A stretch of 55,351 nucleotides of DNA from Synechococcus sp. HK05. GTDB lineage: Bacteria; Cyanobacteriota; Cyanobacteriia; PCC-6307; Cyanobiaceae. The stretch lies in the NCBI RefSeq assembly GCF_019104765.1, contig NZ_JAHRXJ010000014.1, forward strand, positions 1 through 55,351, read 5' to 3'. Shown here in pieces: positions 50,345 through 55,351 of this stretch. The notes beneath the pieces were generated by a model that saw only the letters and a program-made list of their open reading frames with translations, made no database searches and was not told the origin of the DNA. The position numbers and the translations under genes were made by a program. Positions within the stretch are counted from its first letter, which is position 1; the number at the start of each line of letters is the position of its first letter.

Positions 50345-50614
50345 ATGGCCGCCGATCCCCTCACCAGCGCCGTTAGCGATCGCATCTGCAAGCACATGAA
50401 CGACGACCACGCCGAAGCGGTGCTGGCTTACGCGCGCCATTACGGCGGTGTTGCTGCCCCGCAGCAGGCGCGCATGCTGGCTGTGCGGCCTGAAGCGATG
50501 GAGCTGGAGGTGGATGGGGAGCGCCTGGCTGTGGCCTTTGATCACACCCTCAGCGACAGCGAAGACGCCCACCGCACCCTGGTGGCGATGCTGCGGGCGA
50601 TGCCCCAGGCCTGA
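50345..50614 (+). CDS. DUF2470 domain protein
   Basis: An 89-residue protein made of one DUF2470 domain: SDRICKHMNDDHAEAVLAYAR with the HMNDDH motif, then ARMLAVRPEAMELEVDGERL and a final SDSEDAHRTLVAML. In other proteins this domain is the C-terminal part of haem-utilisation and pyridoxamine-oxidase-like proteins such as HugZ, and occurs in plastid regulators. As a stand-alone protein its function is unknown. It follows the small membrane protein by 37 bases. Confidence 0.8.
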   Translation: MAADPLTSAVSDRICKHMNDDHAEAVLAYARHYGGVAAPQQARMLAVRPEAMELEVDGERLAVAFDHTLSDSEDAHRTLVAMLRAMPQA

Positions 50615-50659
50615 ACCAGCGCCGGCGGGGAATGCTCCCTGTAATCGCATCGCCGCTGG

Positions 50660-51319
50660 ATGGGCTTCCATTTCTGGCAGCACGCCCTGGATCTGATCAG
50701 CACAGCCCCCTGCCGCAGCTGCGGTGGTGCCTGTGAGCCGGCCAGCCCCAGCCCCCTTTGCGGGCGGTGCCTGGATGCACTGGCCCTGCCGGAAGGCGGG
50801 CTCCAGGGGGATCAGCCCCTGCTGTGGTGTGCCCTGGCCCCCTATGCCGCTGAGCTGCGCGGCTTGCTGCTGCGCCAGCGGCCCAAACCGGATCGGGCTG
50901 TGGTGAGCCTGTTGGCCGCGCGGTTGCATCACTGTTGCGCCTCGGTGCTGCCGGGCGCCTGGTTGGTGCCGCTACCCAGCTGGAAGCGCTCCGGCAATCC
51001 GTTGCCAGCGCTGGTGGCCCTGGCCTTGGCCGAGGCCAGCGGCGGCAGGGCGGCGCTGGCGCCAGCGCAGCTGCTGTGGCGAAGCCGCCCCACCCTGGGG
51101 CAGCACCACTTGGGCCGCAGCCTTCGCGCCCGCAATCTGCGCGACGCCTTTGGCGCAGCTCCGGCCGGCGCTGGCCTGAACCGGCCCCTTTGGCTGGTGG
51201 ACGACATCCTCACCACGGGGGCGACGGCCTGTAGCGCCGCCCACGCGCTGCAGGCCGCTGGGCATGCGGTGCAGGGCCTGCTGGCCCTGGCGCGAACACC
51301 GGCGAGCGCCCCTCGGTGA
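50660..51319 (+). CDS. ComF-family phosphoribosyltransferase-like protein
   Basis: A 219-residue ComF-like protein. The N-terminal zinc finger uses C18, C21, C34 and C37 (CRSCGGAC and LCGRC). The phosphoribosyltransferase domain has WKRSGNPLPALVALALAEA, HLGRSLRARNLRDAF and the PRPP-binding LVDDILTTGATACSA. In transformable bacteria ComF takes part in DNA uptake. With dprA about 10 kb away, this is compatible with natural competence but does not prove it. Confidence 0.87.
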   Translation: MGFHFWQHALDLISTAPCRSCGGACEPASPSPLCGRCLDALALPEGGLQGDQPLLWCALAPYAAELRGLLLRQRPKPDRAVVSLLAARLHHCCASVLPGAWLVPLPSWKRSGNPLPALVALALAEASGGRAALAPAQLLWRSRPTLGQHHLGRSLRARNLRDAFGAAPAGAGLNRPLWLVDDILTTGATACSAAHALQAAGHAVQGLLALARTPASAPR

Positions 51320-51349
51320 TCTACTATCCGCAGGTCGCCACGGCGACGG

Positions 51350-51422
51350 GCCGGGATAGCTCAGTTGGTAGAGCAGGCGATTGAAAATCGCCGTGTCCCC
51401 AGTTCAAATCTGGGTCCTGGCA
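51350..51422 (+). tRNA. trnF: tRNA-Phe (anticodon GAA)
   Basis: A 73-base cloverleaf: acceptor GCCGGGA/TCCTGGC (one G-T pair), D stem GCTC/GAGC, anticodon stem GGCGA/TCGCC with loop TTGAAAA (anticodon GAA), T stem CCCAG/CTGGG with TTCAAAT. The discriminator is A and CCA is not encoded. Confidence 0.96.
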
Positions 51423-51431
51423 TTGCAAAGC

Positions 51432-51451
51432 ATGAGGCATCCACGCCTCAT
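51432..51451 (+). other. Hairpin after tRNA-Phe
   Basis: ATGAGGC (51432-51438) pairs with GCCTCAT (51445-51451) around a six-base loop, 9 bases after the tRNA. No T-run follows, so it may be a processing signal or a leader structure of the next gene, whose alternative ATG at 51432 is inside it. Confidence 0.5.
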
Positions 51452-51458
51452 TGAGCCG

Positions 51459-51695
51459 ATGCCCATTTCGATTCCGGACAAGCCGGGCCAGCTGTTCGAC
51501 AACGCCGACAGCTTCGCGATGGTGTTCGATGCTGCTTGGCGCAAGCTCCTGGGGAGCCCTGAGGCGGCCGTGATGAGCAACGACGACAAGAAGCGCGTGG
51601 CGCTTGAGGCCTGCGCTGATCACCCCTTCATGCTCAGCAATCCCGCCATGGCGGATCAGGTGGCTGATTTCCGCATCCGTCTGCTGGGGCTCTGA
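51459..51695 (+). CDS. Conserved-looking protein of 78 residues
   Basis: A small soluble protein starting MPISIPDKPGQLFDNADSFA and ending MADQVADFRIRLLGL. No membrane segment or known motif is seen; I do not recognise it. The ATG at 51459 is chosen; an ATG at 51432 would add nine residues and place the start in a hairpin. It lies between tRNA-Phe and cpcT, and stops 41 bases before cpcT. Confidence 0.6.
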   Translation: MPISIPDKPGQLFDNADSFAMVFDAAWRKLLGSPEAAVMSNDDKKRVALEACADHPFMLSNPAMADQVADFRIRLLGL

Positions 51696-51702
51696 GCGGT
51701 TC

Positions 51703-51717
51703 CCCATAGGATCCGGC
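51703..51717 (+). promoter_or_regulatory. 15-base element upstream of cpcT (shared with cpcC)
   Basis: CCCATAGGATCCGGC is identical to the sequence at 53677-53691 upstream of cpcC. The TAGGAT within it could be a -10 box, giving a leader of about 17 bases for cpcT. The repeat suggests coordinated control of antenna genes. Confidence 0.6.
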
Positions 51718-51736
51718 CCATTCCCCGCCATCAGCG

Positions 51737-52330
51737 ATGTCCAGCCCCCTTGCTCGTCTGCTGCGCCAGCTGAGCGCTGGTTTCAGCAATCAGCAGCAGG
51801 CCTTCGACAATCCCCCCCTCTACGCTCACATCCTGGTGAAATTCCGGCCGCTGCCGCAGCTGGAACCGGGGTCGCTGCTGCTCGATCAGTCGTACGCCAT
51901 CAATCCGGCTGCCCCTTACCGCCTGCGGGTGTTGCGGGCGGAGCAGCGCGGTTCGGAGCTGATCATCACCAACCAGGCCATTGCCGATGAGCAGCGCTTC
52001 TGGGGCGCCGTTGATGACGCCGGTAAGCGGGCTCAGATCCGTGCGGCCGACCTCAAGCCCCTGGAGGGTTGCGCCTATGTGGTGCGCGAAACCGCTGATG
52101 GCTTCATCGGTGAGGTGGAGCCGGGCTGCCGCTGCATGGTGGAGCGCAAGGGGGCGCTCTCCTATCTGGTGAGCAGCTTTGAACTCAGTGGCCGCGGCAT
52201 GCGCACCATCGATCGTGGCCACGATCCGGCCACCCATGAGCAGCTGTGGGGATCGCTGGCGGGGCCGTTTGAATTCGAGCGCACCGACGATTACAGCCAC
52301 GAATTACCGGCTGATTGGCTGACGGCCTGA
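51737..52330 (+). CDS. cpcT: CpcT/CpeT-family phycobiliprotein lyase
   Basis: A chromophore lyase that attaches phycocyanobilin to the second bilin site (Cys153) of the phycocyanin beta subunit. The 197-residue protein has the family landmarks SNQQQAFDNPPLYAHILVKFRPLP (in parts: NQQQAFDNPP, YAHILVKFRP), PYRLRVLRAE, CAYVVRETADGFIGEVEPGC and MRTIDRGHDPATHEQLWGS. The distinction between CpcT and CpeT cannot be made from sequence alone, but phycocyanin linkers next door and no phycoerythrin genes favour CpcT. The next gene, a CpcL-like linker, starts 85 bases after it. Confidence 0.87.
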   Translation: MSSPLARLLRQLSAGFSNQQQAFDNPPLYAHILVKFRPLPQLEPGSLLLDQSYAINPAAPYRLRVLRAEQRGSELIITNQAIADEQRFWGAVDDAGKRAQIRAADLKPLEGCAYVVRETADGFIGEVEPGCRCMVERKGALSYLVSSFELSGRGMRTIDRGHDPATHEQLWGSLAGPFEFERTDDYSHELPADWLTA

Positions 52331-52415
52331 GGAGCGGCGAGGTAAAGCTGTGTAAGGGGCTGTGAGGTTTAGCGGCGCACCATCGATAGCTTCGCCGCTG
52401 GTTTTCTCTCCCGCT

Positions 52416-53162
52416 ATGGCCCTCCCGCTGCTGGCCACCAAGCCGATCACCCAGAACGCACGGGTGAACAACTTCTGCATCGGCACGGATGAAGCGCCGC
52501 GCACCCAAGTGGATGTGGATGAGCAGATCGAGCGTGCCTATCGCCAGATCTTTTTCCACGCGTTCAAGGTGGATCGCGAGCCGATGCTCGAGATGCAGTT
52601 CCGCAATGGCGATCTCACGGCCCGTGATTTCGTGCGCGGTTTGCTGCTCTCCCGCAAATTCCGCGATGGCTTCTACCGCTGCAACAGCAACTACCGGGTG
52701 GTGGAGCAGATCGTGGGCCGTGTGCTCGGCCGCGAGGTGCATGGGGATCAAGAGCGCATCGCTTGGTCGATCGTGATTGCCAATCAGGGGCTGGAAGGCT
52801 TCGTGGATACCCTGCTGAACTCCCAGGAGTATCTCGAGGCCTTCGGCTTGGAAACCGTGCCCTATCAACGCTCCCGCGTGTTGGCCGGCCATGCCAAGCC
52901 GCAGCTGCCCTTCAATCAGCAAGCGCCTCGTTACAACGCCTACTGGCGTGATGCCAGCGCTCGCCGCGCCCCGGCCAACCCCTTCGGCGGTGGCGGTGCC
53001 CAGTTCAGCGGCGGTCAGATGTCGGCGGCTTGGGTGGGCGGCCAACCTCCGAAATTGGCGCAAACCATCTGGCTGGCCCTCGCCGCCATCGGTGGCCTGG
53101 AGGTGCTGCGGGTGCTGCTCACCTCGGCCGGCGCCATGCTCGGCACCGGCTCTGCCGGTTGA
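52416..53162 (+). CDS. cpcL: Phycobilisome rod linker with C-terminal hydrophobic anchor (CpcL/CpcG2-like)
   Basis: A 248-residue CpcG-type linker. The phycobilisome linker domain occupies about residues 10-150 (DVDEQIERAYRQIFFHAF, NGDLTARDFVRGLLLS, VEQIVGRVLGREVHGDQERI). A Gly/Pro-rich hinge (about 180-212) leads to a C-terminal hydrophobic stretch (215-242, AQTIWLALAAIGGLEVLRVL then LTSAGAML). Classical CpcG1 lacks this segment, while CpcL (CpcG2) of Synechocystis has a C-terminal membrane anchor and forms rod-only phycobilisomes that feed photosystem I. The call CpcL is therefore likely but not proven, because the segment contains Glu and Arg. ATG at 52416. Confidence 0.75.
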   Translation: MALPLLATKPITQNARVNNFCIGTDEAPRTQVDVDEQIERAYRQIFFHAFKVDREPMLEMQFRNGDLTARDFVRGLLLSRKFRDGFYRCNSNYRVVEQIVGRVLGREVHGDQERIAWSIVIANQGLEGFVDTLLNSQEYLEAFGLETVPYQRSRVLAGHAKPQLPFNQQAPRYNAYWRDASARRAPANPFGGGGAQFSGGQMSAAWVGGQPPKLAQTIWLALAAIGGLEVLRVLLTSAGAMLGTGSAG

Positions 53163-53165
53163 GCC

Positions 53166-53570
53166 TCAGGCGCTCAGTTCATCCATGAAGGGCTGTTCCT
53201 CGTCCTCCTCGGGGAAGGGGTTCAGCTCCAGTTCAGGTTCGTTGAAGCCAGCGTCTTGAGCGCTGGCTTCTGGTTGGGGCCTCTGCAGCGGATGCACGCT
53301 GGCGCGCTGGGGTGCGCTTTGCTCGGTGAGCAGATCCTCCAGCCGCGCAATCCGCTCCTCGGTGGCGGTGAGCAAGTCGGCTGAATCGTGGCTGAGGGTG
53401 TTGCTTTGCAGGTGCTGCAATCCCTCCAGTTGTCCCTCCAGAGCGCTCAGCCGCTCCTCCAGTTCCAACAGGCGCAGGGTGAGGGTTTCACTCACCAGGC
53501 TGAGGGCCTGCATCTGTTCGCTGAGCCGCAGTTGCAACGCTCCAGCACTGAGGGATGCACTCGCTGACAT
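53166..53570 (-). CDS. Coiled-coil protein of 134 residues between phycobilisome genes
   Basis: A protein with a central predicted coiled coil (LSLVSETLTLRLLELEERLS and EGQLEGLQHLQS, then LLTATEERIARLEDLL) and an acidic, Pro-rich C-terminus ending PFPEEDEEQPFMDELSA. No membrane segment or known domain. The ATG at 53570 (MSASASLS) is chosen over an open upstream extension. The gene lies antisense in orientation between cpcL and cpcC. Its stop is 3 bases from the cpcL stop. Function unknown; a phycobilisome-related role is only suggested by position. Confidence 0.6.
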   Translation of the reverse strand: MSASASLSAGALQLRLSEQMQALSLVSETLTLRLLELEERLSALEGQLEGLQHLQSNTLSHDSADLLTATEERIARLEDLLTEQSAPQRASVHPLQRPQPEASAQDAGFNEPELELNPFPEEDEEQPFMDELSA

Positions 53571-53786
53571 GCCTTGGGCCGAAAAGGATCTGGCCGGATG
53601 GTACCGATGCTGGCCCAAGCTGCCAGGCCTGCGTTTTGTAACGATTCTGAAAGCGTCCTGAGGATGTCATTCGGCACCCATAGGATCCGGCTCTGGCGCC
53701 AACTGTGCTGGCAGCCGATTCGGTGCGTCTTCTCCCCCAGGCACGCCCTCCCAAGCAAGCCGTCCAAGCCCGCTTCCCGTAGCCCC
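53571..53786 (+). promoter_or_regulatory. Promoter region of cpcC-cpcD with the shared 15-base element
   Basis: The 216 bases between the divergent coiled-coil gene and cpcC. CCCATAGGATCCGGC at 53677-53691 is identical to the element before cpcT. If TAGGAT is a -10 box, the leader is about 90 bases. No other structure was recognised. Confidence 0.55.
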
Positions 53787-54632
53787 ATGACCCTCGCCAA
53801 CGCTGCCTATCTGGGCATCGAGCGTTACGCCAACAATCGCGTCAATGAGAACTGGATGACCGGTTCCGCCGACGACAAGGCTGCGCTCATCCGTGCCGTG
53901 TACCAGCAGGTGCTCGGTAATCAATATGTGATGTCCAGCGAGCGGCTGGAGGGCCCTGAGTCGCTGTTCAAGCGCGGCTACCTGAGCGTGCGTGAGTTTG
54001 TGCGCCAGGTGGCCAAGAGCGGTCTCTACCGCAAGAAGTTCTTCGAGAGCACCAACCCCTACCGCTTCATCGAGCTCAACTTCAAGCACCTGCTCGGCCG
54101 CGCTCCCCAGAACAAGGCGGAGATGCTGCACCACTTCACGATCCTGCAGGAGCAGGGCTTCGACGCCGAGATCGACTCCTACCTCGACAGCGCTGAGTAT
54201 CAAGAGCGCTTTGGTGAGGAGGGTGTTCCTTACCTGCACGGCTGGAACTACTCCACCGGGCAGCAGGGTCTGCAGTTCTCCTACATGCTGCAGCTGGCTC
54301 GCGGTGCTGCCGCTTCTGTGAAAGGCGACATCACCAAGAATCAGTCGCGTCTCAACCCCTCCGTGCACGCGGAGATGCCGGTGCCGGTGGTGAGCCCCAA
54401 CGCCAAGGGCAATGTGTTCCGCAAGGTGGCCACCGATGGCGTGACCCGCCAGGGCGTGGGTTCCGGCGAAGAGGGCCGCACCTTCCGCGTGGAGATCACC
54501 GGTTTCAATAACTACCGCCTGCACAAGCGCAGCAACCGCGTGCGCTTCATCCCCTTCAACAAGCTGCTCGAGTATCAGCAGCAGATCCACCGCGAAGGCG
54601 GCCGGATCGCCAGCATCACGCCGGTCAACTGA
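53787..54632 (+). CDS. cpcC: Phycocyanin-associated rod linker CpcC
   Basis: A 281-residue rod linker that joins phycocyanin hexamers and tunes their absorption. The N-terminal linker domain (about 15-150) has DDKAALIRAVYQQVLGNQYV (in parts), ESLFKRGYLSVREFVRQVAKSG and FKHLLGRAPQNKAEMLHH. The C-terminal CpcD-like domain (about 228-281) has TFRVEITGFNNYRLHKRSNR. Both domains are intact and the length is near the 288 typical for CpcC. The ATG at 53787 starts MTLANAAYLGIERYANNR; upstream open sequence is promoter. cpcD follows after 35 bases. Confidence 0.9.
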   Translation: MTLANAAYLGIERYANNRVNENWMTGSADDKAALIRAVYQQVLGNQYVMSSERLEGPESLFKRGYLSVREFVRQVAKSGLYRKKFFESTNPYRFIELNFKHLLGRAPQNKAEMLHHFTILQEQGFDAEIDSYLDSAEYQERFGEEGVPYLHGWNYSTGQQGLQFSYMLQLARGAAASVKGDITKNQSRLNPSVHAEMPVPVVSPNAKGNVFRKVATDGVTRQGVGSGEEGRTFRVEITGFNNYRLHKRSNRVRFIPFNKLLEYQQQIHREGGRIASITPVN

Positions 54633-54667
54633 TCGGTTCCTTCGCTCCCTGTTACCCCGTAGCTCCG

Positions 54668-54883
54668 ATGAAGGTTTCTGCAGGCAACCGCGGCACCAGC
54701 TTCAGCAACGATCGCCAGGTGTCTTTGACCGTGACCGGTCTGGCCAACAACGACTACTCCCGCACCGCGGATGTGGTGATGAACGTGCCCTATACCCGCA
54801 TGAACGAGACCATGCGTCTCGTGCAGCGCATGGGCGGCAAAATCACCGCTGTGAACGTGACGGGTGGCATCGACGCCGAGTGA
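54668..54883 (+). CDS. cpcD: Rod-capping linker CpcD
   Basis: A 71-residue protein composed of a single CpcD domain: [20 protein letters not shown], then [20 protein letters not shown] and KITAVNVTG. It caps the distal end of phycocyanin rods. It is cotranscribed with cpcC and followed by a strong terminator 53 bases after its stop. In many cyanobacteria cpcC and cpcD lie downstream of cpcBA; here they are upstream. Confidence 0.92.
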
Positions 54884-54936
54884 TCCAGCTTCATCGAGCG
54901 TCTCCCTGGCGGAATCGCTCGAAGGCTGGTCTCCCG

Positions 54937-54965
54937 AATCCCCCTCCAAAGAGGGGGATTTTTTT
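54937..54965 (+). terminator. Rho-independent terminator of cpcC-cpcD
   Basis: AATCCCCCTC (54937-54946) and GAGGGGGATT (54951-54960) around loop CAAA, followed by a run of T residues to 54965. It separates cpcCD from cpcB, so cpcB needs its own promoter. Confidence 0.95.
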
Positions 54966-55244
54966 GTGCGCTCCGGCGGAGTGTGCCGTCGGCGTGGTCA
55001 CGGTGGCGGCGGCTCGTGCCGGCTGGCGGCGCTGCAGGCCGGCTTCAGCGGGTCTTCTCATCTGGCAAAAAGCCTGCGGTACAGCGGCTTTGCCTCTTGG
55101 AATGACCGTTTGTTAAGCGCTGCTGATGTGGGTGATCAGCTTGTCCAACAATGGCCAGGCCAAGCGATGAGGCGGTTTCGGCCAGCTCCTCGGTTTGGCC
55201 CCTCATCCCCCTCCCCGACTCACGTCGAGAACAGGAGCTCTTCA
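54966..55244 (+). promoter_or_regulatory. cpcB promoter and structured leader
   Basis: A 279-base gene-free region between the cpcD terminator and cpcB. GGCAAAAAGCC (55064-55074) can pair with GGCTTTGCC (55086-55094), with two bulged bases. Downstream, GATGAGG (55166-55172) pairs with CCTCATC (55201-55207), and inside it GGCCA (55180-55184) pairs with TGGCC (55196-55200). The inner loop contains AGCTCCT (55184-55190), the exact complement of the cpcB ribosome binding site AGGAGCT (55233-55239). The -10 and -35 boxes were not identified. Confidence 0.55.
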
Positions 55245-55351
55245 ATGTTCGACGCCTTCACCAAGGTCGTTGCCCAGGCTGATGCCCGCGGCGAATTCCT
55301 GAACGCTGGTCAAATTGATGCTCTCTCCGCCATGGTGGCCGAGAGCAACAA
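55245..55351 (+). CDS. cpcB: Phycocyanin beta subunit, 5' end only (partial)
   Basis: The first 35 codons of C-phycocyanin beta: [20 protein letters not shown] then [15 protein letters not shown], truncated by the window edge. The chromophore-binding cysteines (Cys82 and Cys153 in the family) are outside. The AGGAG Shine-Dalgarno is at 55233-55237, 7 bases before the ATG. Its second bilin site is the expected substrate of CpcT encoded 3.5 kb upstream. cpcA is expected next. Confidence 0.97.

Follow-up and report, generated by a model that had tools for sequence, protein, structure and literature searches.

Introduction

Cyanobacterial promoters of 'type 2' consist of a -10 box and an activator site and have no -35 box (excerpts of PMC2758279). 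The regulator RpaB binds to the HLR1 element, 5'-KTTACAWW-N2-KTTACAWW-3' (excerpts of PMC13421787 and PMC11633204). Activating HLR1 elements lie at about -66 to -45, the RpaB targets named in the excerpt of PMC13421787 include cpcB, cpcG1 and apcE, and an excerpt of PMC11633204 proposes an HLR1 ahead of cpcB in Acaryochloris. For high-GC genomes, a TANNNT hexamer without a stronger centre has been reported as well (PMC3160421, in excerpt).

We analyzed a 15-base sequence, CCCATAGGATCCGGC, that precedes both cpcT and cpcC in Synechococcus sp. HK05 and that an initial annotation had read as either a shared promoter core or an operator of a phycobilisome regulon. Comparison of sequences led us to a best explanation of the whole, to which we assign a probability of roughly 0.8: the same vegetative -10 core would stand at two separate promoters, and cpcC would have an upstream activator site in addition. 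Literature searches of titles and abstract openings returned no description of this core, which is not proof that there is none, and no start-site map for freshwater picocyanobacteria was found in the literature searched.

Results

The window, by which we mean the whole stretch of 55,351 nucleotides that was analyzed, contains CCCATAGGATCCGGC in exact form on the + strand at both positions given by the initial annotation (Table 1). The distances from the 15-mer to the ATG start codons, 20 and 96 bases, had also been given correctly, and the antenna gene names were confirmed, the first gene belonging to the CpeT/CpcT family and the second encoding a phycobilisome linker with a CpcD domain. A third exact copy was absent from the window and from the 2,527,587-base genome; the genome search for CCCATAGGATCCGGC gave 2 exact matches, 1 with one mismatch and 10 with two, and the backwards-pattern control gave 1.

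Table 1. Coordinates in the window of the two 15-mer copies, the surrounding genes and the predicted promoter elements
Feature	Position	Strand	Basis or remark
15-mer before cpcT	51703..51717	+	conserved core CCCATAGGATCC = 51703-51714; genus orthologs
TAGGAT, putative -10 box of the cpcT promoter	51707..51712	+	predicted transcription start near 51719
cpcT, phycobilin lyase family (CpeT/CpcT)	51737..52330	+	Pfam PF06206, E 1e-49
cpcG, rod-core linker, between the two copies	52416..53162	+	PF00427; CpcG models below cut-offs
TTTGTAACGATTCTGAAA, candidate activator site of cpcC, about -58 to -41	53635..53652	+	uniqueness, fixed spacing, HLR1 score
15-mer before cpcC	53677..53691	+	conserved core CCCATAGGATCC = 53677-53688
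TAGGAT, putative -10 box of the cpcC promoter	53681..53686	+	predicted transcription start near 53693
cpcC, rod linker with CpcD domain	53787..54632	+	PF00427, PF01383
cpcD, small rod linker downstream of cpcC	54668..54883	+	PF01383

Several other features of the neighbourhood were recorded. The region before cpcG (52331-52415) is promoter-like, with a GTAAAGCTGTGTAAG element and a TAGCTTC; it is similar in several close relatives and differs from the cpcC element. A divergent ORF of 134 amino acids on the minus strand (53166-53570), for which there was no Pfam or NCBIfam match, shares its upstream region with cpcC. The contig and the window end soon after the start of another cpcB (55245-55351), probably at an assembly break in a duplicated cpcBA, and the genome search detected no cpcA-type gene beside this cpcB. 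A phycobiliprotein gene on another contig of the genome (C10, 48108-48599; L225) has a cpcB-like start and no second PF00502 gene adjoining it. An unlinked extra cpcB without cpcA is described for WH5701 and RS9917 in an excerpt of PMC2246261.

The initial annotation had argued that a chance match of 15 bases within 2 kb is very unlikely. For a scan of the whole window this argument was found to be too strong. The window contains 27 exact direct repeats with a length of 15 bases or more, 10 of which lie within 2 kb, and many are GC-rich and repetitive; 30 order-3 Markov simulations gave a mean of 10.6 such repeats per window and 0.87 within 2 kb. These figures would favour a chance repeat with no function. 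However, both copies have been kept across species with changing flanks, and what shows the match not to be one of chance is that the core is conserved in relatives and that CCCATAGGATCC sites are numerous, against 0 for the reversed control. We therefore consider a chance repeat to be already refuted by conservation and give it next to no credence.

Both copies contain the hexamer TAGGAT, which fits TANNNT. Eleven other near-matches to the 15-mer (up to two mismatches) were present in the genome, and 6 of these keep TAGGAT or TAGGCT while the remaining 5 break the hexamer. All 6 hexamer-keeping matches begin 16-46 nt before a gene start on the same strand; the genes behind them are psb27-like, cytidylyltransferase-like (which we take to be coaD), dapB, acyl-carrier-like (acpP-like), eno and hemB. 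None of the 5 hexamer-breaking matches was classed as upstream. They lie in coding sequence, in genes for a GHL10 glycosyl hydrolase, an E1-E2 ATPase, a prolyl oligopeptidase, gyrB and a T2SSE ATPase, the gyrB match (L010) being less clear-cut as it is antisense in gyrB with another gene start within about 200 bases downstream. When we aligned 27 genus sites (16 cpcT and 11 cpcC) on CCCATAGGAT, the invariant columns were those of CCCATAGGATCC only; the first ten of these were imposed by the selection and the last two were not. In a 400-kb background without the window, TAGGAT was seen ahead of genes 4 times against 0.63 expected, by our own crude gene calls; several TANNNT hexamers were enriched there, the top one being TACGGT (6) and not TAGGAT, and TAGGAT was found just as often on the opposite strand (4), so that these statistics are weak. 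With regard to a -35 box, the best match to TTGACA at spacings of 15-19 was 2/6 for cpcT and 3/6 for cpcC. A scan of positions 50500-55351 with the sigma-70 consensus gave 0 promoters, and 3 terminator-like sites were detected there versus 2.8 in shuffles. Conservation and the positions of the near-matches indicate that TAGGAT very probably acts as the -10 box at both genes, with transcription predicted to start shortly downstream, and to this extent the shared promoter core of the initial annotation is upheld.

A search for cpcT in 25 genomes of the genus identified 23 matches in 20 genomes, 16 of which were close orthologs with at least 81% identity. CCCATAGGATCC was present ahead of cpcT in all 16 close orthologs, and it was found at none of the 7 distant paralogs (40-57% identity) of the genus genomes. 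Among 79 named loci of the family, from freshwater Synechococcus, Cyanobium, Vulcanococcus and their relatives, 21 had CATAGGAT no more than 150 nt from cpcT; Vulcanococcus limneticus LL and Synechococcus sp. HJ21-Hayes are among the strains with the cpcT core. Judged by these loci, the core at cpcT is confined to the window's genus and a part of its relatives. One of the records (L097, CALPNT020000008.1) is titled as a Bifidobacterium breve MAG and bears a Cyanobiaceae cpcT cluster; it is probably misnamed.

The distance from TAGGAT to the cpcT ATG fell into two groups, 6-7 nt in 9 of 20 loci (L078, L080, L082, L085, L090, L093, L099, L104 and L136) and 22-28 nt in the other 11. The distance was never less than 6 nt, as a -10 box requires, and in the 9 loci of the first group the cpcT mRNA is predicted to be leaderless.

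For cpcC we took only matches with at least 79% identity for which an upstream region was available, which gave 49 of the 79 loci, the others having no such match in the sequence available. The core was exactly CCCATAGGAT in 42 of the 49, and in the remaining 7 it differed by one base. All 49 contained a TGTAACGA/TGTAACGT element together with a core-like sequence, and the spacing from start to start was 40 bases in 47 loci and 39 in 2. In the consensus of 44 distinct cpcC promoters, TTTGTAACGATTcTGAAA and CCCATAGGATCCG were conserved and the roughly 20 bases between them were mostly variable. The distance from the core to the ATG ranged from 45 to 261 nt, in contrast to the fixed distance from the core to the upstream element. 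The two-part cpcC promoter, recognized by its sequence in 49 of 49 filtered loci, is the firm result of this study. These distances also bear on the idea that the element works in RNA, within 5' leaders, as its location ahead of start codons on the sense strand could suggest. A gap of just 6-7 nt between TAGGAT and ATG in 9 of the 20 cpcT loci argues against a role in a leader, and so does a cpcC core whose position is fixed relative to the upstream element and not to the ATG; we regard such a role as hardly credible.

Matches to cpcC below 79% identity were more varied. The core with a degenerate upstream element was present in L079 and both parts were present in L137, while L089 had a changed core (CCCATCGGAT) and neither the core nor the element in exact form. 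Of 14 cpcC copies that were second copies or had a lower identity, 12 showed a GTAACG half-site followed at 41-44 bases by a core-like sequence. These do not amount to 14 independent cases, since L137 is not a second copy but a first one and L060 and L076 appear to come from one genome.

We then analyzed how the core is distributed over genomes. Exact CCCATAGGATCC occurred at 45 sites in the 25 genus genomes while the reversed control occurred at none. The sites precede cpcT (16), cpcC (11), enolase (13), uracil-DNA glycosylase (3), dapF (1) and a small ORF (1), the gene families having been verified on examples. A sample of 101 genomes of the family, some of the genus genomes included, gave 62 sites in 38 genomes, again with 0 for the reversed control. 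Thirty of the 62 sites were examined and were found at cpcC (12), eno (5), cpcT (3) and others (10, some without a clear gene); in this recount, 8 loci labelled cpcG (28-31% linker-domain match) were moved to cpcC on account of their GTAACG element. In the window's own genome CCCATAGGAT occurred 6 times (control 0), at a DEAD-box helicase gene, dapF, eno, cpcT, cpcC and an unclear site (C11:40513). At enolase, a conserved sequence of the GGTGCCAACGG type stands ahead of the core CCCATAGGATCC (L169, L173, L178, L181, L190, L194, L198 and L216-L221).

An operator for a regulator of the phycobilisome regulon, the second option of the initial annotation, would be in keeping with the 27 of 45 exact genus 12-mers that lie before cpcT or cpcC, both of which serve phycocyanin rods. 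Scatter without a link to antenna genes, which the initial annotation had named as a refutation, thus applies to only a part of the sites. However, the other 18 of the 45 precede non-antenna genes, enolase accounting for 13 of them. In six other regions of the genome with antenna genes (apcE, apcA/apcB-type, two other phycobiliprotein genes, a solitary cpcB and two other linkers), the coding strand had no TAGGAT, in a check that leaves out the rod-region cpcBA operons because the assembly stops at the window end; TAGGAT was also absent from the stretch before cpcG, between the two 15-mer copies. Furthermore, exact CCCATAGGAT was present at both genes in just 9 of the 49 family loci with a close cpcC, as compared to 33 with cpcC only, 3 with cpcT only and 4 with neither. 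With the same 12-mer before enolase and other genes, and with other antenna regions lacking TAGGAT, the operator reading is not supported, and we consider it very unlikely; of the two options in the initial annotation, only the promoter core is retained. As these sites indicate, the core is common to antenna and non-antenna genes and is over-represented at cpcT and cpcC without being restricted to them.

The length of the conserved sequence led us to weigh a distinct promoter class, in which a group 2 sigma factor or some other factor would read the 12-mer CCCATAGGATCC and tie enolase, cpcT and cpcC together. The invariant part, at 12 bases, is longer than TANNNT and occurs at three unrelated genes, and reversed-control sites numbered 0 in the 25 as well as in the 101 genomes. 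On the other hand, the genes behind one- or two-base variants (hemB, acpP-like, dapB, psb27-like and coaD-like) look like a general set, and a strong vegetative promoter would yield the same conservation, so that a distinct class appears quite unlikely. A bolder formulation would make CCCATAGGATCC an extended Cyanobiaceae promoter class with its own sigma or other factor, tying enolase (carbon flow) to the phycocyanin rod genes; at cpcC, a degenerate HLR1-type site particular to the lineage would act as a further gate. This formulation we regard as unlikely.

When up to three mismatches were allowed, the upstream part of the cpcC promoter, TTTGTAACGATTCTGAAA, had no match in the genome apart from itself (control 0). 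The search had been made to define a regulon, and within that limit no second site was found at cpcT or elsewhere in the genome. The element begins upstream of the core in all 49 filtered family cpcC loci, by 40 bases in 47 of them and by 39 in 2. Its reverse complement, TTTCAGAATCGTTACAAA, agreed with HLR1 at 13 of the 16 defined positions, one half being perfect (GTTACAAA) and the other matching at 5 of 8. Across the 44 distinct cpcC promoters the HLR1 score was 13/16 in 34, 14 in 1, 12 in 7 and 11 in 2, and a background of 910,594 sampled positions contained 10 with a score of at least 13, the cpcC site among them. With the start of transcription put at 7 nt beyond the hexamer, as we infer, the site would extend from about -58 to -41, overlapping with the activating position of -66 to -45 but not lying within it. 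The genome encodes RpaB (NF045944, 393.5 bits at a cut-off of 330). A strict HLR1 search of the genome (up to two mismatches) identified 1 match versus 5 for the reversed control, and canonical HLR1 sites were not evident. Weighing these results, we hold it at about even odds that the imperfect HLR1-like site of cpcC is one for RpaB. NtcA (GTA-N8-TAC) was rejected by eye for the cpcC element, where GTA and 8 bases are followed by GAA.

Discussion

We propose that both copies of the 15-mer are -10 cores of separate promoters, with TAGGAT placed in a preferred context, CCCATAGGATCC. The core would be read by the vegetative RNA polymerase and may serve, in these picocyanobacteria, a number of genes that are highly expressed or have housekeeping roles. 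No -35 box can be recognised at cpcT or at cpcC. At cpcC, TTTGTAACGATTCTGAAA would complete the promoter from a fixed distance, as the site at which a regulator of the OmpR type, RpaB being the most plausible one, may bind and activate transcription. Conservation, spacing and the distribution over genomes are what the sequences show, and the start sites, the sigma factor, binding by RpaB and the direction of control are inferred. Since cpcT is without TTTGTAACGATTCTGAAA, the two genes would share a polymerase signal and, on present evidence, not an operator. Tempting as it is to infer a regulon from the repeated motif, this reading corrects it: the motif is probably a polymerase signal, and the regulatory information at cpcC seems to lie some 25 bases farther upstream. 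The cpcC promoter offers a clean and deeply conserved two-part test case for the light control of antenna size in freshwater picocyanobacteria.

Compared with a -10 box of the sigma-70 type, TAGGAT fits TANNNT and its distance to the leaderless-like starts is appropriate, whereas the conserved context here is 12 bases long (CCCATAGGATCC) and a -35 box is lacking. The arrangement at cpcC, with a -10-like core, no -35 box and an upstream site at a fixed distance that is particular to this gene, fits the 'type 2' cyanobacterial promoter; it differs in that the example named in the excerpt of PMC2758279 uses NtcA (GTA-N8-TAC) while the cpcC site is HLR1-like. With respect to HLR1 and RpaB, the cpcC site differs in its second half, which matches at only 5 of 8 positions, and in the genome around it, where canonical HLR1 sites are not evident. 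It resembles the known system in its length of 18 bases, its one perfect half and its overlap with the activating position, and it stands ahead of an antenna gene in a genome that encodes RpaB.
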